NCBI RefSeq assembly: GCF_017104565.1
Contig: NZ_JAAGPD010000039.1
Coordinates: 1-64,000, forward strand
Reading direction: 5' to 3'
Length of the DNA stretch: 64,000 bases
Origin: Paraburkholderia sp. Tr-20389
GTDB lineage: Bacteria; Pseudomonadota; Gammaproteobacteria; Burkholderiales; Burkholderiaceae
Shown here: positions 6,514 through 53,367 of the stretch, piece after piece
How positions within the stretch are numbered: the first letter of the stretch is position 1
Layout: every line of letters begins with the position of its first letter
The notes under the pieces: model-generated
What the model was told of the DNA's origin: nothing
Databases searched by the model: none
The model's input: only the letters and a program-made list of their open reading frames with translations
Translations under genes and position numbers: made by a program

Positions 6514-6993
6514 GTGAGTGCGATGCTCTTTCTCCTCTTCGAACTCGACGGCGACCGCTATGCGCTCGATGCCGCCTGCATCGTCGAAGTCCAGGCGCTG
6601 ACGGCCGCGAAGACGATTCCGGGTGCGCCCGCGTGGGTCGCGGGTCTGATCGAGCGGCACGGCGGGCCCGTGCCCGTGATCGATCTCGCGCAGCTTGCGC
6701 TCGGCCGGCCGTCGCAGCGGTGGCGTTCGACCCGGCTCGTGCTGGTGCGCTACCAGGAGACACCTGAAGCGCCGTCGCGCCTGCTCGGCCTGATCGTCGA
6801 ACGCGCGACGCAGACGCACCGCATCGAACGCGAGCGTTTCGCCGACAGCGGCATCGCGACGCCGCACGCGCGCTGGCTCGGTGCTGTCGCGAGCGACGAA
6901 TTCGGCATGATCCAGCGAATCGACGTACAGCAGATGCTCGACGACGACGTGAAGGCACTGCTCTTCCCGCAACCCGAACCTCATCCGCAATGA
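6514..6993 (+). CDS. wspB: CheW-like coupling protein of the Wsp system
   Basis: A 159-residue CheW-domain protein (FLLFELDGDRYALDAACIVE at the start; GAPAWVAGLIERHGGPVPVI in the middle) that couples the WspA receptor to the WspE kinase. The reading frame opens with GTG at 6514 and has an internal ATG at 6523, so the exact start is uncertain by three codons. The stop overlaps the start of wspC by four bases, which indicates translational coupling within the operon. Confidence 0.9.
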   Translation: MSAMLFLLFELDGDRYALDAACIVEVQALTAAKTIPGAPAWVAGLIERHGGPVPVIDLAQLALGRPSQRWRSTRLVLVRYQETPEAPSRLLGLIVERATQTHRIERERFADSGIATPHARWLGAVASDEFGMIQRIDVQQMLDDDVKALLFPQPEPHPQ

Positions 6994-8417
6994 CCGCCGC
7001 GAACGCCTTCGTGCCGCGCTTCGAAGCCTGGCTCCTGCGGGAGACGGGGATCGACGCGTCGTCGCTCGGCGTCAATGCGCTCGAACGCGCGGTGCTCGAA
7101 CGCGTGCGCGTCGCGTGCCTCGGTGCAAGCGCGCACGACACGAACGTGTCCGTCGATCCCGCCGACATCGATGCGTACTGGCAGCAGCTGACGACGTCGC
7201 GCGACGAACAGCAGGTGCTGATCGAAGCGCTCGTCGTGCCCGAGACCTGGTTCTATCGCGACCGCGAAGCGTACGTCGCGCTCGCGCGGCTCGCGAATGA
7301 GCGGCTGGTGCGCGATCCCACCCATGTGCTGCGCGCGCTGAGCCTGCCGTGCTCGACAGGCGAAGAGCCGTACACGGTGGCGATGACACTGCTCGACGAC
7401 GGCATCGGCGAGAACCGCTTTACCGTCGATGCCTTCGATATCAGCGCGCGCGTGATCGACCATGCGCGCGCCGGCATCTACGGTCGCAATTCGTTTCGCG
7501 GCGCGCCGCTCGCGTTTCGCGACCGGCATTTCACGGCATTCAAGGAGGGCTGGCAACTGGGCGAGCGTGTGCGGCAGACGGTGCGCTTTACGCAGGCCAA
7601 TCTGTTCGATCTGCAGCCGAATGTGCAAGCGCCCTATGACTTCATCTTCTGCCGCAACGTGCTGATCTATTTCGATCGCGACGCGCAGGACCGCGCGATC
7701 CGGCTGCTCGACGCGCATCTCGCCGACGGCGGCACGATCTTCGTCGGCCCTGCCGAAACCGGCCTGATGATGCGTCACGCGATGACGTCGGCGCGCATTC
7801 CGCTCGCCTTCGCGTTCCGGCGCAGCACGCCGGAAGAACGGGACGCCACGCGGCAAGCGGTGAAGCAGGCTGTGTCGGGCATCGCGGCGCGCGCCGTGCA
7901 TACGGCTGCATCGACCTCTGCGGCAGGCACACGCGACTCGGCAAAGCAATCGCCCGCGCACCGTGCTTTCACGCGTACACCATTGCGCGCGCCGCCGACT
8001 GTCAGAGCGATGCCGCCCGAAGTACCGCCGCAAGCGGCCGCCGTGCCATCGCTCGATGCCGCGCGCCGTCACGCGGATGCCGGCGAGTTCGACGCCGCCG
8101 AACGTCTCGCGCATCAGCATGCGATCGTGCATGGCCCGAACGTCGACGCGTTCCATCTACTGGGACTGATCGCCGATGCGCGCGGGCACGTTGACGACGC
8201 CGCTGACTTCTATCGAAAGGCGCTCTATCTGGACCCCGCACATTACGAGGCGCTCACGCATCTGGCCGCGCTGCTCGATATCGGCGGCGATCACGCGGGC
8301 GCGCAGAACCTGATGCAGCGCGCGCAACGCTCGGCCGCGCGCGCCGCACGGTCGACGGACGCGTCGGCGGACGAAGCACAACGATCACGAGGATTCCATG
8401 CTTCACGACGCTCCTGA
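6990..8417 (+). CDS. wspC: CheR-type methyltransferase with TPR tail
   Basis: A 475-residue SAM-dependent methyltransferase that methylates glutamates of WspA (adaptation). The N-terminal CheR domain shows SLPCSTGEEPYTVAMTLLDD (SAM site) and YDFIFCRNVLIYFDR. After a low-complexity linker of about residues 285-345, a C-terminal TPR region (about 350-460) includes FHLLGLIADARGHVDDAADF and YRKALYLDPAHYEALTHLAA. The CheR plus TPR form is the known architecture of WspC. Overlaps wspB by four bases and wspD by twenty. Confidence 0.92.
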   Translation: MTAANAFVPRFEAWLLRETGIDASSLGVNALERAVLERVRVACLGASAHDTNVSVDPADIDAYWQQLTTSRDEQQVLIEALVVPETWFYRDREAYVALARLANERLVRDPTHVLRALSLPCSTGEEPYTVAMTLLDDGIGENRFTVDAFDISARVIDHARAGIYGRNSFRGAPLAFRDRHFTAFKEGWQLGERVRQTVRFTQANLFDLQPNVQAPYDFIFCRNVLIYFDRDAQDRAIRLLDAHLADGGTIFVGPAETGLMMRHAMTSARIPLAFAFRRSTPEERDATRQAVKQAVSGIAARAVHTAASTSAAGTRDSAKQSPAHRAFTRTPLRAPPTVRAMPPEVPPQAAAVPSLDAARRHADAGEFDAAERLAHQHAIVHGPNVDAFHLLGLIADARGHVDDAADFYRKALYLDPAHYEALTHLAALLDIGGDHAGAQNLMQRAQRSAARAARSTDASADEAQRSRGFHASRRS

Positions 8418-43822: not shown

Positions 43823-44000
43823 GCGCGAGACAGCCCTTCTCTAAAGGACTTGTCGGGCTGCATCGACGCATGCGGGTATACGTTAATTTGTGCGCGCCGG
43901 GCAGCCCCGTTTACTGAAGTGAAAGCCAGGTCGTCCGAACTACTTTGATCAGACATGATCGAGGGGTTCGGACGTTGTTTGTTCGTACCGGAGGTGTAGC

Positions 44001-45395
44001 ATGGCGAATCTGTCCAGCAGTGCAATCGACGAATTCAAGGCTCTCACACGAGGCCAGATCGTATTGCCCGGCGACCCGTCGTTCGATGAAGCACGCAGTA
44101 TCTGGAATGGCATGATCGATCGTCGCCCCGCGATCATCGTTCGCTGCGCGGGCACTGCCGACGTCCGTTGCGCGGTCAATTTCGCCCGCGACAACCAGCT
44201 TCTGCTCGCCGTGCGCGGCGGCGGTCACAACATAGCAGGCAGCGGCGTGTGCGAAGACGGCATGCTGCTCGATCTTTCGCCGATGAAGTCCGCGCGCATC
44301 GATCCCGTGGCGCGGCGCGCCTATGTGGAGCCCGGCTGTCTGCTGCGCGACTTCGATCACGAAGCACAAGCCTTCGGTCTCGCCACGCCGCTCGGCATCA
44401 ACTCGACCACGGGCGTCGCCGGTCTGACGCTCGGCGGTGGCTTCGGCTGGCTCAGCCGGCGCTTCGGCATGACGGTGGACAACCTGATTTCAGCCGACGT
44501 CGTCACCGCCGACGGCCAAATGATCCGCTGCAGCGCCGATTCGCATGAAGATCTGTTCTGGGCGATTCGCGGCGGCGGCGGCAACTTCGGCGTCGTCACG
44601 ATGTTCGAGTTTCGTCTGCACGAAGTCGGTCCGGAAGTGTATGGCGGCCTCGTCGTGTTGCCGATGGATCAGGCGCGCGATGCACTCGTGAAATACCGCA
44701 AGGCATTCGAGACGTGGCCTGACGAATTGACCGTCTGGGCCGTTGCGCGCTTTGCGCCACCGCTGCCTTTCCTGCCCGCCGATGTGCACGGCAAGCCGAT
44801 CATCGCGTTCGCCGTCTGCTATACGGGACCCGTCGCGAACGGTCCCGCCGTGGTCGACGAAGTGCGCAAGTTCGGTACGCCCTATGGCGAGCATCTCGGA
44901 CCGATGCCGTACACCGCCTGGCAACAGGCGTTCGATCCGCTGCTGACGCCCGGCGCGCGCAACTACTGGAAGTCGCACAATCTGGCCACGCTCGACGACG
45001 GCCTGATCGACGCGTTCGTCGATGCGATCGGCAACCTGCCGTCGCCTCAGTGCGAAATTTTCTTTGGCGCAATAGGCGGCCAAACGATGCGCGCGGCGCC
45101 CGACGCCACGGCCTATTCGAATCGCGACGCGAAGTATGTGATGAACGTGCACGGCCGCTGGACCGAGGCCGCCGACGACGAACGCTGCATTGCCTGGTCG
45201 CGCGCATTCTTCGATGCATCGGCGCCGTTCGCGCTCGGCAGCGTCTACGTGAACTTCATGACGGAGGAGGAATCCGGGCGCGTCGGTGCTGCCTATGGTC
45301 CTAACTACGCTCGACTCGTCGCCGTGAAAGACCGTTACGATCCGCAGAACCTGTTCCGGCATAACCAGAACATCAAGCCATCTGCCATGGCCTGA
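44001..45395 (+). CDS. FAD-binding oxidoreductase, berberine-bridge-enzyme-like
   Basis: A 464-residue flavoprotein with a PCMH-type FAD domain (AVRGGGHNIAGSG with the His that binds FAD covalently; LTLGGGFGWLSRRFGMTVDN) and a C-terminal BBE segment (YGPNYARLVAVKDRYDPQNL). The Cys that makes a second FAD bond in plant BBE enzymes is not seen: the site reads GINSTTGVAG. It is therefore probably mono-covalent. The substrate is unknown. A good GGAGGTG site precedes the start. A stem-loop follows the stop. Confidence 0.88.
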   Translation: MANLSSSAIDEFKALTRGQIVLPGDPSFDEARSIWNGMIDRRPAIIVRCAGTADVRCAVNFARDNQLLLAVRGGGHNIAGSGVCEDGMLLDLSPMKSARIDPVARRAYVEPGCLLRDFDHEAQAFGLATPLGINSTTGVAGLTLGGGFGWLSRRFGMTVDNLISADVVTADGQMIRCSADSHEDLFWAIRGGGGNFGVVTMFEFRLHEVGPEVYGGLVVLPMDQARDALVKYRKAFETWPDELTVWAVARFAPPLPFLPADVHGKPIIAFAVCYTGPVANGPAVVDEVRKFGTPYGEHLGPMPYTAWQQAFDPLLTPGARNYWKSHNLATLDDGLIDAFVDAIGNLPSPQCEIFFGAIGGQTMRAAPDATAYSNRDAKYVMNVHGRWTEAADDERCIAWSRAFFDASAPFALGSVYVNFMTEEESGRVGAAYGPNYARLVAVKDRYDPQNLFRHNQNIKPSAMA

Positions 45396-45413
45396 GTGCT
45401 GCGCGTTCGAAAC

Positions 45414-45442
45414 GCCGGATGGCAACCTGCCTGCCATCCGGC
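45414..45442. other. Perfect 11-bp stem-loop after the FAD oxidoreductase
   Basis: GCCGGATGGCA (45414-45424), seven-base loop, TGCCATCCGGC (45432-45442). It lies 18 bp after the stop codon. There is no T-run, so it is a terminator-like or mRNA-protecting hairpin and not a proven intrinsic terminator. Confidence 0.5.
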
Positions 45443-45471
45443 ATTCGCTGTTCAACGCCCTTCTCCCGTCG

Positions 45472-46329
45472 ATGCAGATTGCCGCCCACCGCTCCATACC
45501 GCGCCTGCGCATCGCGTTACTGACCCTCATCGCGATGTTCGCGTTCGCGGGCAATTCGCTGCTGTGCCGCGTCGCCCTGAAAGGCACATCGATCGATCCC
45601 GCGACGTTCACGTCGGTGCGCATCGTGTCGGCGGCAGTCGTGTTGTGGATCATTCTGCGTACACGCGGCAATTCGCAACGCGTCGGCGGCAACTGGCTGT
45701 CGGCGTTCGCGCTGTTTGCCTACGCTGCGGCGTTTTCGTTTGCCTATGTATCGCTGGCGGCCGGCACGGGCGCGTTGCTGCTGTTCGGCGCAGTGCAGGC
45801 GACGATGATCGGCTATGCGCTGACGCGCGGCGACCGCCTGCGCCTGCTGCAATGGATCGGCCTCGCATGCGCCCTCACGGGGCTCGTCGGTCTGGTACTG
45901 CCCGGCGTCAGTGCGCCGCCTCTGTTCGCGTCGCTGCTGATGCTGTGCGCGGGCATCGCGTGGGGCGTCTATTCGCTGCGCGGCAAACGCGCCGCCGATC
46001 CGACGGCCACCACGGCCGGCAACTTCATGCGCGCGATCCCATTCGCGGTCGTTATCAGCGCGGGCATGTTCACGCATGCATCCGTCGATAGAACCGGCCT
46101 GTTTTTCGCGGCGATTTCAGGCGCGCTGACATCGGGCGTCGGCTATGTGATCTGGTATGCCGCGTTGAAGCACATCGCGTCCGCCACGGCGGCAACTGTG
46201 CAACTGAGCGTGCCGCTGATCGCCGCGGCGGGCGGTATCGTGCTGCTCGGCGAACCGCTGACGACACGCCTCGCGTTGAGCGCGCTCGCGATACTGGGCG
46301 GCATCGCGCTCGTCGTCGCACGCCGCTGA
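45472..46329 (+). CDS. EamA-domain (DMT superfamily) transporter
   Basis: A 285-residue protein with ten hydrophobic segments in two EamA repeats (IALLTLIAMFAFAGNSLLCR at the start; AISGALTSGVGYVIWYAALK and HIASATAATVQLSVPLIAAA in the second repeat). It probably exports a small metabolite; the substrate is unknown. No clear ribosome site precedes the ATG at 45472. Its stop is 41 bp from the first ModE-like box, which belongs to the next gene. Confidence 0.85.
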   Translation: MQIAAHRSIPRLRIALLTLIAMFAFAGNSLLCRVALKGTSIDPATFTSVRIVSAAVVLWIILRTRGNSQRVGGNWLSAFALFAYAAAFSFAYVSLAAGTGALLLFGAVQATMIGYALTRGDRLRLLQWIGLACALTGLVGLVLPGVSAPPLFASLLMLCAGIAWGVYSLRGKRAADPTATTAGNFMRAIPFAVVISAGMFTHASVDRTGLFFAAISGALTSGVGYVIWYAALKHIASATAATVQLSVPLIAAAGGIVLLGEPLTTRLALSALAILGGIALVVARR

Positions 46330-46370
46330 TCTCGATCTGACAGACAAAAACGGCCGGGTGTCCGGCGCAT

Positions 46371-46394
46371 CGATGTATACGATAGAATACATCG
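46371..46394. promoter_or_regulatory. ModE-like box 1
   Basis: CGATGTAT (46371-46378), spacer of eight bases, ATACATCG (46387-46394). The arms are a perfect 8-bp inverted repeat. The box lies 26 bp upstream of the GTG start of the 174-residue protein gene. Two further boxes with the same 8-8-8 layout occur at 46965 and 49396. The CG-n-TATAT...ATAT-n-CG pattern resembles known ModE operators, and a ModE-type gene lies 2 kb away. Confidence 0.7.
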
Positions 46395-46420
46395 AACGTT
46401 CGGATCTCGGGAGAAACGGG

Positions 46421-46945
46421 GTGGACAACAGTCGTCGCGATGCGCCCAAAGATGCGCTATCCAAAAAGATCAGCACGCTCAAGCCGGTGTCGGACGACGT
46501 GCGCGCGCAGCAGATCCGCGACGTCGTCGATGGGTTCAGACGTCTGCACAGCAGCGTTACGCGCTTCGTGCAGATGTTCGCGGCCGCGAGAAGCGCGCCG
46601 CCGCCCGCCGATCGTCTTTCCTCCGCGACCTTGCGCGAGCTGCTGGCCATGCTCGCGAGCGAAGCCCAGGCCGCGCGCTTTGCGCGGCTGCGCGAACTGA
46701 AGATCGCGATCCGCCAGGCACGTCTGCTCGAACGCACGCGCGACGCCGTGTTCTCCGAGTCGTTCAGCACGGACCCTACCGCGATGCGCGAGACGGTCAC
46801 CGCGCTGGAGCGCGTCGATGCGATTCTCGTCGGACTGTGCGTCGAACACGTGCTCGAACGTCACAAGGCGGTGCCACCGCGTACGGTCGCCCTCAAGCGC
46901 GCGCCGCCGCAGACGCGCCGGCGTCAACCCGAGCCCGTGCACTGA
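46421..46945 (+). CDS. Uncharacterised 174-residue protein, ModE-box controlled
   Basis: I do not recognise a family. The protein is Arg/Ala-rich and mostly helical by appearance (QQIRDVVDGFRRLHSSVTRF; LRELLAMLASEAQAARFARL; IRQARLLERTRDAVFSE), with a basic Pro/Arg tail (KRAPPQTRRRQPEPVH). No signal peptide, membrane segment or Cys cluster is seen, so it is probably soluble. The start is GTG at 46421 with GGGAG seven bases upstream; the longer frame from 46358 would pass through the ModE-like box and is rejected. It lies 98 bp before the DUF2325 gene, which has its own box, so the two are probably co-regulated. Confidence 0.7.
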   Translation: MDNSRRDAPKDALSKKISTLKPVSDDVRAQQIRDVVDGFRRLHSSVTRFVQMFAAARSAPPPADRLSSATLRELLAMLASEAQAARFARLRELKIAIRQARLLERTRDAVFSESFSTDPTAMRETVTALERVDAILVGLCVEHVLERHKAVPPRTVALKRAPPQTRRRQPEPVH

Positions 46946-46964
46946 TTGGCGCGTCCGAACGACT

Positions 46965-46988
46965 CGATATATTCGATGGTATATTTCG
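46965..46988. promoter_or_regulatory. ModE-like box 2
   Basis: CGATATAT (46965-46972), eight-base spacer, ATATTTCG (46981-46988). Seven of eight arm positions are symmetric. It lies 55 bp upstream of the DUF2325 gene start and 19 bp after the preceding stop. Same half-site sequence and spacing as boxes 1 and 3. Confidence 0.7.
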
Positions 46989-47043
46989 CTTATCCGTTCG
47001 CGCATCCACCCCGGTCCGCCTGACTGTCCGGATAGAGGTCACC

Positions 47044-48381
47044 ATGCACGCTCCGCCCTTTCGTCTTGCCCGCACGTCCAGCATCGAAACATCCGTGCAT
47101 TCCGCGCAGCGCACTGCCGAAGGGCGCGCCGATGCCTGCTGCGCGCCGTCGAAAGCGCAACTCGCCGACCTGAGACGGCGCGCGCGCCTCGCAGAACTGG
47201 ACTCGCATCTGCATTGCTCGATCATCGGCACGTGTCTGAGCACGCATGAATTGCGCAAGCTCGTGCCGAAGTACACGGACCTCGACCGGCAGCGCGCGAG
47301 CGACCTGGAGATTCACCACACGGCCGTCGAACTCGCGATCGAAGGCGGCGCAGGCGGCAAGGCGCTGCAAAAGGCGCTCGACGAACGCTACGCCGGCGCG
47401 ATCCGTCTGTTCGACAAGGCGAAAGATCCCGACGCGGTGCTCGCGCTATGGAAAGAAGCGCTCAAGAACGGCGACATTCCGCCCGCGTACTGGGCGCTGA
47501 TGACGCATTCGCAAACGACGATGAGCGTGCGGCAAACGGCCTTCGGCGATCTGCACATGCTGTCGCATCTGGTTGGCGCCGCGAATCGGGCGGACATACG
47601 CCGGCTCGTCGCGCTGGAAGAAGAGAACGTGTCGTTGCGCGCGAAGATCGATCGGCAGCAGAGCCGCTTGCAGGAGATGAGCTTGCAGCGCGACGCCGCC
47701 ACGCATGAACTGGATGCGCGCGCCGCGCATGCCAAAGCGCAGGATGCCGAAAGCGACGACGCGTTGCGCGCCGAAGTCCACACGTTGCGCGAAGCGCTGA
47801 CGGCACGCGATGAACGGCTCGCGTTGCACACGAACCGCCGCGAGGCTGCCGAACAGCGTGCGGCAGCCGAACACGACAGCGCACGTGCATTGCGCGCGAG
47901 GCTCGATGAAATGGATGCGCTCGTGAAAACGCTGCAAGCGGAAGCGAGCGCGCTCGAACGCACGCTTCAGGTCACGGCCGCCGACGACCCGTCGCACGAT
48001 CCGGCCGCGTCGCTCGCGATTCTGGAGCGCATGCGGATCGTGTATGTCGGCGGACGGCCGGGATCGAATGCGGCGATCAAACGTATCGTCGAGTCGGCAG
48101 CCGGTGAGATCACCGTGCACGACGGCGGTATCGAAGATCGCAAAGGTCTGCTCGCGGCCGCGCTGCCCGGCGCGGACATGGTCGTGTTCCCCGTCGACTG
48201 CATCGATCACGACTCGATGAATATGCTCAAGCGCATCTGCGAACGCGGTCACATCGCGTGGTATCCGCTGCGCACGGCGAGCGTCGCGAGTTTCGTCGAA
48301 CTGATCGGCCGGCTCAATGCCGACGCGCAAACCAACACGCAGCCGGGCGGTTCGCCGCGCTTCTGTCTGCGACACGGCTAG
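47044..48381 (+). CDS. DUF2325-domain protein with His/Cys-rich N-terminal domain and coiled coil
   Basis: A 445-residue protein in three parts. Residues about 40-185 form a His/Cys-bearing domain (His55, His57, Cys58, Cys64, His68, His91, His92, His171, His175) that could bind metal. Residues about 188-330 are a charged coiled coil. Residues about 345-430 match DUF2325 (RIVYVGGRPGSNAAIKRIVE; DMVVFPVDCIDHDSMNMLKR), a Rossmann-like fold of unknown function. The start at 47044 has GAGGTC upstream; the frame from 46837 overlaps the previous gene and is rejected. It carries its own ModE-like box, and modE is convergent 16 bp away, so a role in molybdenum/oxyanion homeostasis is plausible but unproven. 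Confidence 0.75.
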   Translation: MHAPPFRLARTSSIETSVHSAQRTAEGRADACCAPSKAQLADLRRRARLAELDSHLHCSIIGTCLSTHELRKLVPKYTDLDRQRASDLEIHHTAVELAIEGGAGGKALQKALDERYAGAIRLFDKAKDPDAVLALWKEALKNGDIPPAYWALMTHSQTTMSVRQTAFGDLHMLSHLVGAANRADIRRLVALEEENVSLRAKIDRQQSRLQEMSLQRDAATHELDARAAHAKAQDAESDDALRAEVHTLREALTARDERLALHTNRREAAEQRAAAEHDSARALRARLDEMDALVKTLQAEASALERTLQVTAADDPSHDPAASLAILERMRIVYVGGRPGSNAAIKRIVESAAGEITVHDGGIEDRKGLLAAALPGADMVVFPVDCIDHDSMNMLKRICERGHIAWYPLRTASVASFVELIGRLNADAQTNTQPGGSPRFCLRHG

Positions 48382-48397
48382 GCGCCGTGCGTGAAGC

Positions 48398-48763
48398 CTA
48401 GCGCCGCACCATTTTCGTAAGCGCGGCGATGTCGTCGGAGCATGCCGCGTACGCCTGCGCCTCGATCCCGCGATAGAGCCGGATGATTTCTTCCCCGACA
48501 GGCGTGAGCACGCTGCCGCCGCCGCTCTGTCCGCCGTGCTCCGACACCGTCGCGGGCGATTTCAGCGAACGGTTCAACTCATCCATCAGCAGCCACGCGC
48601 GCCGATACGACATGCTGAGGCTGCGCGCCGCAGCCGAAATCGAACCGTGCTCGCGCACCGCCTCGAGCAGCGCGACCTTTCCCGGTCCGAGCGCGATCGT
48701 GCCGGCCTGCTGGATACGCATTCTGAACCGCACCTCGGGCTTCGGATGTGCCGATGTTTTCAT
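48398..48763 (-). CDS. modE: ModE-family regulator, DNA-binding domain only
   Basis: A 121-residue protein with the ModE N-terminal winged helix (LLEAVREHGSISAAARSLSM then SYRRAWLLMDELN). E. coli ModE is about 260 residues and carries two molybdate-binding Mop domains; here they are absent, and a separate two-Mop protein is encoded at 49537-49965. It may sense molybdate through that protein or act without direct sensing. The Met at 48763 (MKTSAHPKPEVRFRM) is chosen; Met at 48784 is possible. A 20-bp GCATA-N10-TATGC palindrome lies 29 bp upstream of the start. Confidence 0.85.
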   Translation of the reverse strand: MKTSAHPKPEVRFRMRIQQAGTIALGPGKVALLEAVREHGSISAAARSLSMSYRRAWLLMDELNRSLKSPATVSEHGGQSGGGSVLTPVGEEIIRLYRGIEAQAYAACSDDIAALTKMVRR

Positions 48764-48792
48764 GTTATCTGCCGGTTGCCTCATGCGCGCAA

Positions 48793-48812
48793 GCATACAC
48801 GATGCCATATGC
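48793..48812. promoter_or_regulatory. Palindrome upstream of modE
   Basis: GCATA (48793-48797), ten bases, TATGC (48808-48812), just upstream of the chosen modE start. It does not fit the ModE-like box pattern well, so it may be an autoregulatory variant or chance. Confidence 0.3.
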
Positions 48813-48865
48813 GGCCAATCAATCGGCAATTGCACCAGTCCGCGGTGCACGCAGACCTCAACGCA

Positions 48866-49357
48866 TCACAATTCGAGCACGCGCGCGACGACACCCGCCA
48901 GCCGTTTCACGTGGCGCGGCGCGGGCAGAATATCGGCTGCGGAGAACAGAATGGGCGCGCCGTCGTCGACGGAGAGCGGCTGGTCGCCGCGCTCGAACGC
49001 AACGAGCACGCGTTCGCCGATGGGGGTATTGAACAGTTCATGCCAGGAGAAGGTCACGGCGTAGCCATCATGAGCGTGCGCAATGAACACGGTCCGCTTG
49101 AAGTCGCCGGGCTTGTCGTTGCGCAGGCCGGCCATCTCGATCAGGTCTTTCAGCAGCACGCCGCGATACTGGTCGATCTTGCGAATGAAGCGGTTCGTCG
49201 TGTAGCAGCGCAGGTCGAAGGCATCGGCTGTGACGCTCGCGTGCTGCCGCAGATCGTCGAGCGTCACCCGCATCGGGCGCAGGAGAGCGCCCGCCAGCGT
49301 GACGGCGCCTGCCGTCGTGTCCTGCAGCGGCAGCGCCGCCGTGCCCGTCTGTCCCAT
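48866..49357 (-). CDS. Small molybdopterin-dependent oxidoreductase-fold protein
   Basis: A 163-residue protein related to the molybdopterin-binding domain of the sulfite oxidase family, but far shorter than full enzymes. Segments such as MRVTLDDLRQHASVTADAFD, LRCYTTNRFIRKIDQYRGVL and KDLIEMAGLR follow the family pattern, with one Cys (in RCYTTNRF) near the place of the Mo-ligating Cys. It may bind a molybdenum cofactor or be a scavenging or chaperone form. ModE-like box 3 lies 39 bp upstream of its start, which ties it to the molybdenum regulon. Confidence 0.75.
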   Translation of the reverse strand: MGQTGTAALPLQDTTAGAVTLAGALLRPMRVTLDDLRQHASVTADAFDLRCYTTNRFIRKIDQYRGVLLKDLIEMAGLRNDKPGDFKRTVFIAHAHDGYAVTFSWHELFNTPIGERVLVAFERGDQPLSVDDGAPILFSAADILPAPRHVKRLAGVVARVLEL

Positions 49358-49395
49358 CGTCCGTCTCCGTTCCGTTGCAGCGTCGATCCGCCGCG

Positions 49396-49419
49396 CGATG
49401 TATCGGTGGATATATTACG
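49396..49419. promoter_or_regulatory. ModE-like box 3
   Basis: CGATGTAT (49396-49403), eight-base spacer, ATATTACG (49412-49419). It lies 39 bp upstream of the small molybdopterin-fold gene (minus). Its left arm is identical to that of box 1, and the spacer length is the same in all three boxes. Confidence 0.7.
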
Positions 49420-49536
49420 CTGCGCGAGCAACGGCTGCCCAGGAGATCCGCGACATAGAGGGCATATTGCACGGCGTATGAAACACCGGCGGCGGACGAC
49501 GGACACAAGACCGCCGCCGGTGTCAGGGCAAAGCGC

Positions 49537-49965
49537 TTACTGGTCGACGCCGACGATCACGCTCGAAGCCTTGAAGATCGCCGCAGCCGCCTTGCCGCTC
49601 GCGAGGCCGAGACGGTCGACGCTGTCGTTGGTGACGATGGCCGCGATCTGCGCGCCGCCCGCCGCCGAAATAATGACCTCGCTGTTGACGGCGCCCTTCG
49701 TGACCGACGCGACCGTGCCTGCGACGCAATTGCGCGCCGACACCTTGCTGCTGTCGGCATCGACCATCACGATCACCGACGAAGCCTTGACGAGCGCGAA
49801 CGCGGGCTTGCCTGCCGCGAGTCCGAGCGAGGTTGCACTGCCGTGCGTGATGACCGCGACGATTTCGAGTCCGTCCTGGCTACGGAGCGTGACTTCGTCG
49901 TTGACGGCACCGTTCTTGACGGCCGTGACCTGGCCGGCGAAATGATTGCGGGCGCTGGTACGCAT
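49537..49965 (-). CDS. Molbindin with two Mop (TOBE) domains
   Basis: A 142-residue protein made of two Mop/TOBE repeats of about 68 residues: NHFAGQVTAVKNGAVNDEVT and FALVKASSVIVMVD in the first, NCVAGTVASVTKGAVNSEVI and AIFKASSVIVGVD in the second. This is the ModG/di-Mop type, which binds molybdate as an oligomer for storage or buffering. The start at 49965 has AAGGAGAG. As modE lacks its Mop domains, this protein may supply sensing or buffering to it. Confidence 0.9.
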   Translation of the reverse strand: MRTSARNHFAGQVTAVKNGAVNDEVTLRSQDGLEIVAVITHGSATSLGLAAGKPAFALVKASSVIVMVDADSSKVSARNCVAGTVASVTKGAVNSEVIISAAGGAQIAAIVTNDSVDRLGLASGKAAAAIFKASSVIVGVDQ

Positions 49966-50179
49966 GTGACTCTCCTTCGGGTTGCCCCTGATTATTGTTG
50001 AAGTGTATGGACGAAAGGGTTCCGGCAGTGTAGCGCGCGCACATGACACCCCGCCATCGGCGGCCTTGTTCGAGCCAGGCCTAAGCGTGACGCGGGCATC
50101 GCGAGCGGCAGCGCAGCATACGTGGCACCCCGGTTGCTCCTATCCGGACAGAGGGCCCCCAAAACGAAAAGGAGCAGCC

Positions 50180-50569
50180 ATGAATACGATTGGATTGTCG
50201 CAGCGCATCGAGGAAATCGAACTGGCTCTCGCGGGCATGTTCGAATCGCCGAAAGCGCCCACCGTGAGCGCGTATCAGGAAGGGACGACCACGTATCTGA
50301 CGCTCTCGTGGGTCGTCGAAACGGGTCGGGATACGACCCTGGACGCGCGCTGTATCGCGACGATCAAACTCGTCGATGCCCAGATCGACCGCTATGCGGC
50401 GCTCGAAACGTCCAAACGGCGAATCGTGCAGGACCGTTTGAAGGATCTCGTGCGCCGGCATGTCGACGCATCGCGGGCGAAGGCTGCATCGGCGGACAGC
50501 TGTTCGATCGAACTCGAAGTCGAGGACACCGTGTTCGACGTGCCCAACGAGCCGTACAACGCGCTGTAA
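50180..50569 (+). CDS. DUF3022-like hypothetical protein
   Basis: A 129-residue protein with an AAAAGGAG ribosome site seven bases before the ATG at 50180. The sequence (NTIGLSQRIEEIELALAGMF; YQEGTTTYLTLSWVVETGRD) resembles a small Burkholderiaceae family that I recall as DUF3022. It has no signal peptide or membrane segment and is predicted alpha/beta. Function unknown. It is divergent from the molbindin gene. Confidence 0.7.
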   Translation: MNTIGLSQRIEEIELALAGMFESPKAPTVSAYQEGTTTYLTLSWVVETGRDTTLDARCIATIKLVDAQIDRYAALETSKRRIVQDRLKDLVRRHVDASRAKAASADSCSIELEVEDTVFDVPNEPYNAL

Positions 50570-50694
50570 CACCCGACTGCCCGGAAACGTCGCGACGCTT
50601 CCGGTCCTGCCGCCGGGGCAATAGACTATGCTAACGCGCGAGCCCGTGTGCTCGCGCTGTCGCACACGCGGCCATCCTTTTGAGTCTATTGCCC

Positions 50695-51399
50695 ATGAAT
50701 TCGACCACCGACGATACCCCGCGCCCCGCCCTGCGCGCGCTCACGCCGCTCGAAGCCCGCGTGCTGGGCGTGCTGTTCGAGAAGCAGCACACCGTGCCCG
50801 ATACCTACCCGCTTTCGCTCAATTCGCTCGCGGCGGGCTGCAACCAGAAGACCTCCCGCTCGCCCGTGATGAACGTCAGCGAGACCGAGATTCTCGACGC
50901 GATCAACACGCTCAAGCGTCTCTCCCTCGTGCTGGAAGGCAGCAGCAGCCGCGTGCCGCGCTACGAGCACAATATCGAACGCGTGTTCGGGTTGCCGCGC
51001 CAGTCGGCGGCGCTGCTGACGGCGCTGCTGCTGCGCGGCCCGCAGACGGCGGCCGAACTGCGGCTTGCCACGTCGCGCCTGCATAGCTTCGCCGACACGT
51101 CGTCCGTCGAAGCGTTTCTCGAAGAACTCGCCGACAACGATCCGCCGCGCGTCGTCAAGCTCCCGCGCACGCCGGGCGAGCGCGAAAGCCGCTGGATGCA
51201 TCTGCTGTGCGGCGAACCGTCCGCCGAGCAACTGCGCGGGGCCACGCTTTCCGACGAACCGCTGCCGCCCGGCGAGCTGGAAGGCCTGCGCGCGCAGCAG
51301 CGCGAGTTGAGCGAGCGCGTCGAGCGGCTCGAAGCGCTCGTCACGCATCTGGCGGGCGAACTCGGCGTGTCGCTCGACGATCTGAAGGGGCGGCTGTAG
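50695..51399 (+). CDS. yceH: YceH (DUF480) family protein
   Basis: A 234-residue protein with two winged-helix-like DUF480 domains (ALTPLEARVLGVLFEKQHTV then PDTYPLSLNSLAAGCNQKTS at the N-terminus; AALLTALLLRGPQTAAELRL in the middle) and a short C-terminal coiled coil (LRAQQRELSERVERLEALVT). Length and motifs match YceH, whose cell role is not well defined. The start at 50695 is used. A perfect 10-bp stem-loop follows 35 bp past the stop. Confidence 0.88.
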   Translation: MNSTTDDTPRPALRALTPLEARVLGVLFEKQHTVPDTYPLSLNSLAAGCNQKTSRSPVMNVSETEILDAINTLKRLSLVLEGSSSRVPRYEHNIERVFGLPRQSAALLTALLLRGPQTAAELRLATSRLHSFADTSSVEAFLEELADNDPPRVVKLPRTPGERESRWMHLLCGEPSAEQLRGATLSDEPLPPGELEGLRAQQRELSERVERLEALVTHLAGELGVSLDDLKGRL

Positions 51400-51434
51400 T
51401 TGTCCTGGCGTTGCCTGCGGTTGCCTGCGCCGGG

Positions 51435-51465
51435 CGGATCGCCGTGCGTGGTTCGCGGCGATCCG
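51435..51465. other. Perfect 10-bp stem-loop after yceH
   Basis: CGGATCGCCG (51435-51444), an 11-base loop, CGGCGATCCG (51456-51465), 35 bp past the yceH stop. GC-rich, with no T-run. Probable transcript-end hairpin. Confidence 0.5.
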
Positions 51466-51663
51466 GCTTCGGCGGCCGACCTCCGCCCGCTCGCCTGACC
51501 GGAAGGCGTTCTCCGTTTCCGGACCACAACACCGATCCCCCGCACAAAGCTTGCGAACCGCCCGCACCGAATGCGACGATGCGGGTGGCGCGCGCCACGC
51601 GCCCCGAATTCAGCCCCGCCTGCTGTGCCTCAACCGCGTTTCACTGTGCCAGGAGACTGACCG

Positions 51664-53367
51664 ATGAACGAGCACGACGATCCCACACTGCCCCCGGCTT
51701 CCGAACTCCCCGACGCCTCCTCCGACCGTCCCGACGACCCGGAACGCCGCCGTGTCCTTACGGGACTCGCAGCGGCAGGCCTCGGCTTCGCGCTGGCAGG
51801 CTGTCAGTCGATGGACAGCGCCGCGAACGGCGCGCCGCGCAGCGCGGCCGACGCGCGCCTCGACGCCGCCCTGCATGATCAGGTCAAGCGGATCGTCGTG
51901 ATTTACGCGGAAAATCGCAGTTTCGCGAACCTGTACGGCAATTTCCCCGGCGTGCAATATCCGCTTTCCAATGTCGCGCCGGAACGCTACGTGCAACTCG
52001 ACCGCGACGGCAAAACGCCGCTCGCGACGCTGCCGAAAATCTGGGGCGGCCTCGTGCCGCAGGCGCAGGAAGTCGACGGCAAGCGCTATATGATTGCCGA
52101 ACGCGACATCGCCGGCTTGCGCAACCAGCCGTTCCATCTCACCGACGCGCATGGCGCGCCGCTGCCGAACAGCGTGATCACACGCGATCTCGTGCATCGT
52201 TTCTATCAGAACCAGATGCAGATCAACGCAGGCCGCAACGACCAGTTCGCCGCATGGGGCGATTCGGGCGGCCTCGTGATGGGGCATTACCGCAGTTCCG
52301 GCGAGTCGCTGAAACTGTGGGCGCTCGCACAGCAATACACGCTGTGCGACAACTTCTTCATGGCTGCGTTCGGCGGCTCATGGCTCAATCACATCTTCCT
52401 GATCTCCGCGCAGGCGCCGCTCGTGCCGGACATCGGCAACGGGCCGGGCAAGAAGCTGGTATCCGTCGTCGATGGCGACGATCCTCTCGGTACGCGTCTA
52501 AAGCTCGCACCCGATGCGCCGAAGTCGGCGCTCGACGGCCCGCCCAAGTTCATCAGCGACGGCCTGTTCACGCCCGATGGCTACGCCGTCAACACGATGG
52601 CGCCGCCCTACCAGCCGAGCATGGTGCGTCCCGCCGAGGGCGGCGACCCGGCGCTCGCCAATCCGGCCGAGCCGAAGGTGCTGCCGCCGCAACGCTACGC
52701 GACGATCGGCGACCGGCTCTCCGCCAAGGGCGTCGACTGGGCGTGGTATAGCGGCGCGTGGCAATACGCGCTAGATCATCGCGATACGGGCGCCGTGCCC
52801 GACTTCCAGTATCACCATCAGCCGTTCAATTACTTCGCGAACTTCGCGCCTGGCACGGCGGCCCGTGCGCGGTATCTGCGCGACGGCGGGGTCGGCGACG
52901 ACGCGTCCACCAACCGCTTCATCGCCGATATCGACGCGGGCCGCCTGCCCGCCGTCACCTTCTATAAACCGCAGGGCAATCTGAACATGCATGCGGGCTA
53001 CGCCGATGTCGAATCGGGTGACCGGCACATCGCGAACGTGATCGAGCACATCCAGCGCGGGCCGCAATGGCAGAACACGGTGATCGTCATCACGCACGAC
53101 GAAAACGGCGGCTGGTGGGATCACGTCGCGCCGCCGAAGGGCGACCGCTGGGGACCGGGCTCGCGCATCCCCGCGCTCGTCATCTCGCCGCTCGCGAAGA
53201 AGGGGTACGTCGACCACACGGTGTACGACACCAATTCGATCCTGCGCCTGATCAGCCGCGTGCACGGACTCGCGCCGCTGGATGGCATCGTCGCGCGCGA
53301 CCGGGCGTTCGCGCAGAACGGCCTTGCGCCCATCGGCGATCTGACGGGCGCGCTCGATCTCGCATGA
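51664..53367 (+). CDS. Tat-exported lipoprotein of the acid phosphatase/phospholipase C family
   Basis: A 567-residue protein of the AcpA/phosphoesterase (PF04185) family, related to bacterial phospholipase C and acid phosphatase. The N-terminus has a twin-arginine motif (ERRRVLTGL) and a lipobox (LAGC), so it is probably exported folded and lipid-anchored. The metal site is seen in VVIYAENRSFANLYG and VIVITHDENGGWWDHVAPPK. It hydrolyses phosphate esters, probably for phosphate scavenging; the substrate is not defined. A weak ribosome site precedes the ATG at 51664. Confidence 0.85.
   Translation: MNEHDDPTLPPASELPDASSDRPDDPERRRVLTGLAAAGLGFALAGCQSMDSAANGAPRSAADARLDAALHDQVKRIVVIYAENRSFANLYGNFPGVQYPLSNVAPERYVQLDRDGKTPLATLPKIWGGLVPQAQEVDGKRYMIAERDIAGLRNQPFHLTDAHGAPLPNSVITRDLVHRFYQNQMQINAGRNDQFAAWGDSGGLVMGHYRSSGESLKLWALAQQYTLCDNFFMAAFGGSWLNHIFLISAQAPLVPDIGNGPGKKLVSVVDGDDPLGTRLKLAPDAPKSALDGPPKFISDGLFTPDGYAVNTMAPPYQPSMVRPAEGGDPALANPAEPKVLPPQRYATIGDRLSAKGVDWAWYSGAWQYALDHRDTGAVPDFQYHHQPFNYFANFAPGTAARARYLRDGGVGDDASTNRFIADIDAGRLPAVTFYKPQGNLNMHAGYADVESGDRHIANVIEHIQRGPQWQNTVIVITHDENGGWWDHVAPPKGDRWGPGSRIPALVISPLAKKGYVDHTVYDTNSILRLISRVHGLAPLDGIVARDRAFAQNGLAPIGDLTGALDLA

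Follow-up and report, generated by a model that had tools for sequence, protein, structure and literature searches.

Here, we analysed a stretch of 64,000 nucleotides from Paraburkholderia sp. Tr-20389 (contig NZ_JAAGPD010000039.1, positions 1 to 64,000; hereafter the window), in which three ModE-type boxes stand close ahead of three genes, coding for P174, an uncharacterised helical protein of 174 amino acids (aa), a DUF2325 protein and a small molybdopterin-fold protein. Sequence comparison makes it fairly probable that the boxes are ModE operators joining these three genes and modABC in one molybdenum-response regulon, that a ModE-type protein represses it when molybdate is sufficient and that the DUF2325 protein is a metal-shortage factor. 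The locus, which also holds a helix-turn-helix (HTH)-only ModE-type regulator and a molbindin, is made up of the following features, with box mismatches counted against the pattern CGATRTAT-N8-ATAYATCG of an initial annotation of the window:

46371..46394, + strand: ModE-type box 1, 26 bp ahead of the P174 GTG at 46421; 0 mismatches
46421..46945, + strand: P174, uncharacterised helical protein, 174 aa, GTG start; no Pfam or NCBIfam match
46965..46988, + strand: ModE-type box 2, 55 bp ahead of the DUF2325 gene ATG at 47044; 1 mismatch
47044..48381, + strand: DUF2325 protein, 445 aa; PF10087, 56.1 bits (cut-off 33.6)
48398..48763, - strand: HTH-only ModE-type regulator, 121 aa; PF00126, 29.3 bits; no TOBE match
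48866..49357, - strand: oxidoreductase molybdopterin-binding-domain protein (the molybdopterin-fold protein), 163 aa; PF00174, 37.1 bits (cut-off 24)
49396..49419, - strand: ModE-type box 3, 38 bp ahead of the molybdopterin-fold gene ATG at 49357; 2 mismatches
49537..49965, - strand: molbindin, two TOBE/Mop domains; PF03459, 106.3 bits, and TIGR00638, 135.1 bits, in two stretches each

The initial annotation had described three copies of one element, each 26-55 bp from a start codon, with a ModE-type regulator and a molbindin among the boxed genes. Scanning the 64-kb window with its pattern at up to 3 mismatches returned just three matches, boxes 1, 2 and 3, at the coordinates it had given; the chance expectation was a mean of 0.31, and three sites were reached in 0 of 100 shuffles. 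The distances of 26, 55 and 38 bp agree with the range it had proposed, and the regulator (48398-48763) and the molbindin (49537-49965) lie where it had placed them. As for the half sites, which were said to be shared around an eight-base spacer, the 8-8-8 frame holds, but the right halves of box 2 (ATATTTCG) and box 3 (ATATTACG) deviate from ATAYATCG. Compared with the general ModE form, CGNTATAT-N8-ATATANCG, which has 12 fixed bases, boxes 1, 2 and 3 show 2, 1 and 2 mismatches, and a scan of the window with this form at up to 4 mismatches found no box belonging to the ModE-like gene or to the molbindin. The left half of box 2 overlaps a weak -10-like TATATT, and no molybdenum cofactor (Moco) riboswitch or other Rfam RNA reached the gathering score in 44000-52000.

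Relatives were collected by a pattern-based scan of a species-genome collection with the DUF2325 protein, which gave 68 loci, nearly all of them from Burkholderiaceae, and a box was called at up to 2 mismatches in the 12 fixed bases within 320 bp upstream; the DUF2325 frame was readable in 63 of the 68 (L064, L065, L069, L070 and L071 were left out). A box lies upstream of P174 in 29/29 relatives, of the DUF2325 gene in 56/63 and of the molybdopterin-fold gene in 37/39, compared with a mean of 0 to 0.02 per set for control palindromes with half-sites shuffled from the same letters. Four of the seven DUF2325 genes that have no box (L024, L038, L052 and L055) have a boxed P174 directly upstream, and the other three (L067, L068 and L072) have broken or uncertain starts. 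The molbindin gene is boxed in 11 of 25 relatives, or in 18 of 25 at 3 mismatches. The spacer of 8 is the peak throughout (P174 29/29, DUF2325 54/58 for proteins of at least 400 aa, molybdopterin-fold 37/39); a spacer of 6 gave 4/29, 19/58 and 4/39, which we read largely as the same repeats matched with an offset, and no other spacer from 4 to 12 exceeded 3 per set. A ModE, molbindin or molybdopterin-fold gene is found nearby in 65 of 67 Burkholderiales loci, and a ferritin-like or TonB-receptor gene in 1 of 67. Separately, the DUF2325 gene shows broken or partial matches only, as if decaying, in the Candidatus Burkholderia/Paraburkholderia records L056, L067, L070 and L072.

The same element was recovered at modA, where the initial annotation had recommended that the 8-8-8 pattern be looked for. 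The Escherichia coli K-12 modA element, taken from the genome, reads CGTTATATTGTCGCCTACATAACG; it has the 8-8-8 frame, 1 mismatch in the 12 fixed bases, and lies 19 bp before the ATG. Among Burkholderiaceae, 16 of 29 modA loci have a box (shuffle mean 0.01), in a scan whose window was set by a rough start guess and which passed over the modA site of our own genome. Because of the conservation, the shuffle control, the spacer peak and the modA match, we consider the boxes to be real, common to modABC and tied to these genes, and the predicted extension of the ModE regulon to P174 and the DUF2325 protein is supported by the same conservation and modA match. Conservation ahead of orthologous genes had been named beforehand as a first test of this extension, and it was found in all three sets as well as beyond Burkholderiaceae. 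Like the E. coli modA operator, the boxes are 24-bp 8-8-8 elements close before a start codon; unlike the E. coli ModE operator, they are not confined to transport or cofactor genes and here precede the uncharacterised P174 and DUF2325 genes as well as the small molybdopterin-fold gene.

Outside Burkholderiaceae, a 0-mismatch box at L119 has a PF00174 gene and a molbindin adjoining, a 1-mismatch box at L122 has an HTH-only ModE adjacent, and a 0-mismatch box at L136 stands between the DUF2325 gene and a 68-aa molbindin, followed by PF00174. At L064 a 2-mismatch box precedes the DUF2325 gene and a second one, with 0 mismatches, lies close to where a ModA-like/PF00174 fusion starts; DUF2478 lies in between. 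In an out-of-sample check of 24 further loci, the three best-scoring proteins (L224, L225 and L226) were all boxed at up to 2 mismatches, L224 being a near copy of L064 and not independent; the neighbours of L225 and L226 are MoeA-like, DUF2478 and ModA-like genes. The remaining 21 of these 24 loci have no ModE box at 2 mismatches. The L064 fusion (6918-8291) is itself worth recording, since one frame carries a ModA-like solute-binding domain and PF00174, which hints at a functional connection between the small PF00174 protein and molybdate uptake.

The DUF2325 protein looks to be the ModE-controlled branch of a wider proteobacterial family whose other branches are at least partly linked to iron. 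A ModE box is absent from all 27 other distant members, of which 12 have a Fur-like site (at least 13 of 19 letters; L177 left out); shuffling gave a mean of 0.985 and no more than 4 in 200 rounds. The same search gave 0/58 in the Burkholderia set (58 of 63, proteins of at least 400 aa) and 0/4 for the distant ModE-type genes, that is, 0/62 ModE-type genes in all. Among 19 gammaproteobacterial loci, a ferritin-like or TonB-receptor gene was found in 11 by tblastn, or in 12 counting L178 (Pfam), and no ModE, molbindin or molybdopterin-fold gene lies within the locus stretch. Nine other non-ModE loci have a ferritin-like gene in only 1 case; L228 adjoins FeoA and a periplasmic binding protein, and L140 adjoins DUF2218. 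The long DUF2325 proteins of other Proteobacteria (L121, L124, L163-L181) appear to be unstudied, and are in part Fur-boxed and near ferritin or TonB-receptor genes. They share the three-part architecture and the Cys/His positions of the protein described here, but differ from it: they have no ModE box, some have Fur-like boxes, some have ferritin or TonB-receptor neighbours, and in most the linker is Cys-rich and residue 382 is Cys. Such a linker (at least 3 Cys in the 48 residues before VGG) is present in 18 of 25 non-ModE members versus 0 of 21 ModE members, and position 382 is Cys in 23 of 26 non-ModE members and F in 21 of 21 ModE members. L228, L230 and L232-L235, which have F at 382 and no ModE box, weaken the idea that a molybdenum-type protein can be told by its loss of Cys; as some non-ModE alphaproteobacterial proteins share F382, this change may predate the switch of regulator.

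Relatives of the DUF2325 protein were found in 14/398 genomes of a phylum sample, 20/369 of its own class, 6/385 of the class of G143 and 29/297 of the order of G143; a few genomes occur in more than one of these samples, and some matches cover just the DUF2325 part. The structural model (mean predicted local distance difference test score, pLDDT, 82.9) consists of a disordered start, a helical domain at about 37-153, a coiled coil at about 160-312 and a Rossmann- or receiver-like domain at about 328-430. A PDB sequence search with the protein gave coiled coils only, and the model had no PDB fold match at E<=0.001. A 17-row alignment reaching down to 25% identity has C58, C64, H91, H155, H171, H175, H359, H389 and C399 among its invariant residues, and the helical N-domain with its invariant Cys and His has the look of a binding domain for a metal or metal cofactor. 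The coiled coil and the receiver-like domain could also belong to a protein that only signals metal status, or serves as a scaffold for such signalling, with no metal handling of its own, but we find this doubtful in view of the nine positions invariant in all 17 rows and the Cys-rich linkers of the non-ModE members.

Which ModE uses the boxes is a separate matter. The regulator in the window is ModE-type, as the initial annotation had it, with one refinement: it is HTH-only, and a full-length ModE (276-aa frame) adjoins modABC on another contig of the genome, so that either may be the binder. The 121-aa protein matches TIGR00637 with an E value of 2.5e-22 and 78.8 bits, under the cut-off of 98.5, and has the N-terminal HTH of ModE; the two TOBE domains of the E. 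coli type are missing from it, and a TOBE pair sits on the separate molbindin gene. Full-length ModE (at least 93 bits and an open frame of at least 272 aa) was identified in 32 of 44 genomes with these loci (of 45, L053 left out), and none was found in the other 12 (L012, L018, L019, L022, L028, L048, L052, L057, L060, L064, L122 and L136). In these 12 every ModE match is shorter, some genomes having in addition a weak third type of near 360 aa, and the box before the DUF2325 gene (L052: before P174) is retained. It is unlikely that only the full-length ModE beside modABC serves the boxes while the HTH-only ModE has another target or decays: E. coli ModE is full-length, our own genome has the full-length gene beside modABC, and the L119 genome has boxes with full-length ModE alone, but the 12 genomes keep their boxes with HTH-only ModE, and the HTH-only gene shows good conservation next to the regulon. 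Four of the 12 (L048, L057, L060 and L064) were assembled from metagenomes, and their missing full-length ModE may reflect incompleteness; the other eight were not. Because these 12 genomes are HTH-only and L119 is full-length only, both ModE kinds seem able to use the same box. In genomes that have no full-length ModE the HTH-only form is probably sufficient, and the separate molbindin adjoining its gene is a likely molybdate sensor. Weak ModE-like matches of about 360 aa recur in many of the 44 genomes, and our own genome has one such third, weaker HTH protein (L101 2380-3462, contig C73).

According to the regulon that we propose, when molybdate is sufficient a ModE-type protein, either the HTH-only form sensing via the molbindin or the full-length form, would occupy the three promoters and repress them, and molybdenum shortage would open them. 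The DUF2325 protein would then most likely act in the cytosol under metal shortage, binding, salvaging or passing on a scarce metal or its cofactor, iron in the sister branches and molybdenum or its cofactor in the ModE branch. E. coli ModE both represses and activates, and is annotated as a dual regulator; together with the molybdopterin-binding domain encoded by one boxed gene, this would allow ModE to activate the three genes for molybdoenzyme assembly when molybdate is plentiful. Such activation is nevertheless improbable, since the boxes lie 26-55 bp before start codons, much as the E. coli modA box lies 19 bp before its ATG, and the Fur-like sites of the sister genes fit a starvation response. 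The case for repression is argued from this modABC parallel and from the Fur-boxed sister genes.

Several observations weigh against the regulon and metal-shortage function proposed here. Our own modA has only a degenerate box directly ahead of its likely start (CGCTGTAACCCTACATATATTACG on the gene strand, 3 mismatches), and 13 of the 29 Burkholderiaceae modA loci have no box at 2 mismatches. The promoter-like TTGGCG-16-TATATT at 46946-46973 is at chance level (1 found versus a shuffle mean of 0.8), and a by-eye check of the relatives' alignments saw no conserved -35 ahead of the boxes. The ModE gene itself is boxed in only 3 of 59 relatives, and its autoregulation was rejected on this count. 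For the N-domain no fold match was obtained in a second structure comparison, which covered mainly residues 325-435 and thus barely tested that domain. Fur-like sites occur in just 1 of 21 alphaproteobacterial non-ModE loci, so an ancestral iron role is drawn mainly from Gammaproteobacteria. That the boxes are sites of another regulator, or AT-rich promoter sequence resembling a palindrome, is hardly credible given their conservation, spacing, match to E. coli modA and linkage to ModE genes, even if the whole genome holds 60 matches to the pattern of the initial annotation at up to 3 mismatches, against 10 for a reversed control, and weak matches alone mean little. A genome-wide regulon based on the pattern alone was rejected: none of 11 further own-genome regions was counted, 10 sites being inside reading frames predicted by a crude caller and one, a site with 3 mismatches at L190, lying ahead of a reading frame.

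A single branch separates the ModE-box members from the others, with support of 99/96 in a 47-row tree and 100/99 in a 52-row tree, and the ModE-box side reaches Alphaproteobacteria, where members stand beside molbindin, ModE, ModA-like, DUF2478 or MoeA genes. The 47-row tree has 16 chosen Burkholderiales rows, with L177 and L181 left out; the 52-row tree leaves out nine earlier rows and uses 14 of the 24 out-of-sample loci; and the ModE label of L038 and L052 (and, in the 47-row tree, of L024) comes from the box before P174. Both trees are unrooted, and the direction of change between iron and molybdenum depends on the root. The simplest reading is that ModE took over an iron-starvation family once, and the wider spread of non-ModE members can be read as iron control having come first. 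We regard as evenly poised the broader proposal of a metal-shortage family with iron and molybdenum editions, in which a single clade exchanged Fur-type for ModE-type control on one occasion, has a C-terminal Cys set (linker and residue 382) unlike that of most of its sisters, and uses in part of its range a split ModE with HTH and TOBE pair on separate genes. The L119 genome, from the same order, also has L120, a second, non-ModE copy in which no Fur-like site was found, which would be useful for comparing the two types.

P174, the other uncharacterised member of the set, is lineage-limited, with relatives in 2 of 250 genomes of the order, its own included. The P174 model is all helical (mean pLDDT 82.2); a PDB sequence search gave nothing, and the model had no PDB fold match at E<=0.001. 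A DUF3022 protein (31.8 bits, cut-off 30.6) is encoded at 50180-50569 of the window, after the molbindin and on the opposite strand, with no box ahead of it. A Gram-negative porin gene (L007 7495-8773; also L008, L010, L014, L015 and L016) has a ModE box about 105-142 bp upstream with 1-2 mismatches, in 6 of 10 loci having that porin, and may code for a molybdate porin.

Studholme and Pau 2003 is reportedly a study of the ModE element in Proteobacteria and may already list some of these sites; among titles on ModE or molybdenum regulation in one open-access library none on this locus was found. The available portion of the open-access literature mentioning DUF2325 yielded no mention of molybdenum. 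Published work, as far as the accessible text extends, gives the ModE consensus as ATCGNTATATA-N6-TATATANCGAT and describes in Desulfovibrio an HTH-only ModE that, like the one described here, is the DNA-binding half without the molybdate-binding domains, with a sensing mechanism called unknown (PMC545781). The Desulfovibrio sites differ, their consensus being CGGTCACG-N14-CGTGACCG in the same excerpt (PMC545781), whereas the locus described here has an E. coli-type box and an adjacent two-TOBE molbindin. The predicted ModE regulon of Geobacter sulfurreducens likewise has sites before genes outside molybdenum metabolism, but according to the available section of that report its target genes are others and its ModE is full-length (PMC2700814). 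Cj1384c of Campylobacter jejuni is also a DUF2325 protein tied to metal or redox stress, with 352-fold induction by light, and clusters with katA and a heme-trafficking gene; unlike the protein described here, it is a 104-aa DUF2325 domain with 7 Cys, and the accessible part of the article mentions no link to molybdenum (PMC9426514).

The ModE box is a known element, but in these loci it marks genes that have no assigned function as molybdenum-response genes across two proteobacterial classes. What is new here is the membership of the DUF2325 protein in a wider proteobacterial family with a ModE-box branch. The marked genes gain a testable condition, molybdate limitation, and the boxed genomes with HTH-only ModE pose the question of how molybdate is sensed by a ModE that lacks molybdate-binding domains. 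The ModE-associated and partly Fur-associated branches offer a natural comparison of a metal-handling protein and its regulator changing metal together.

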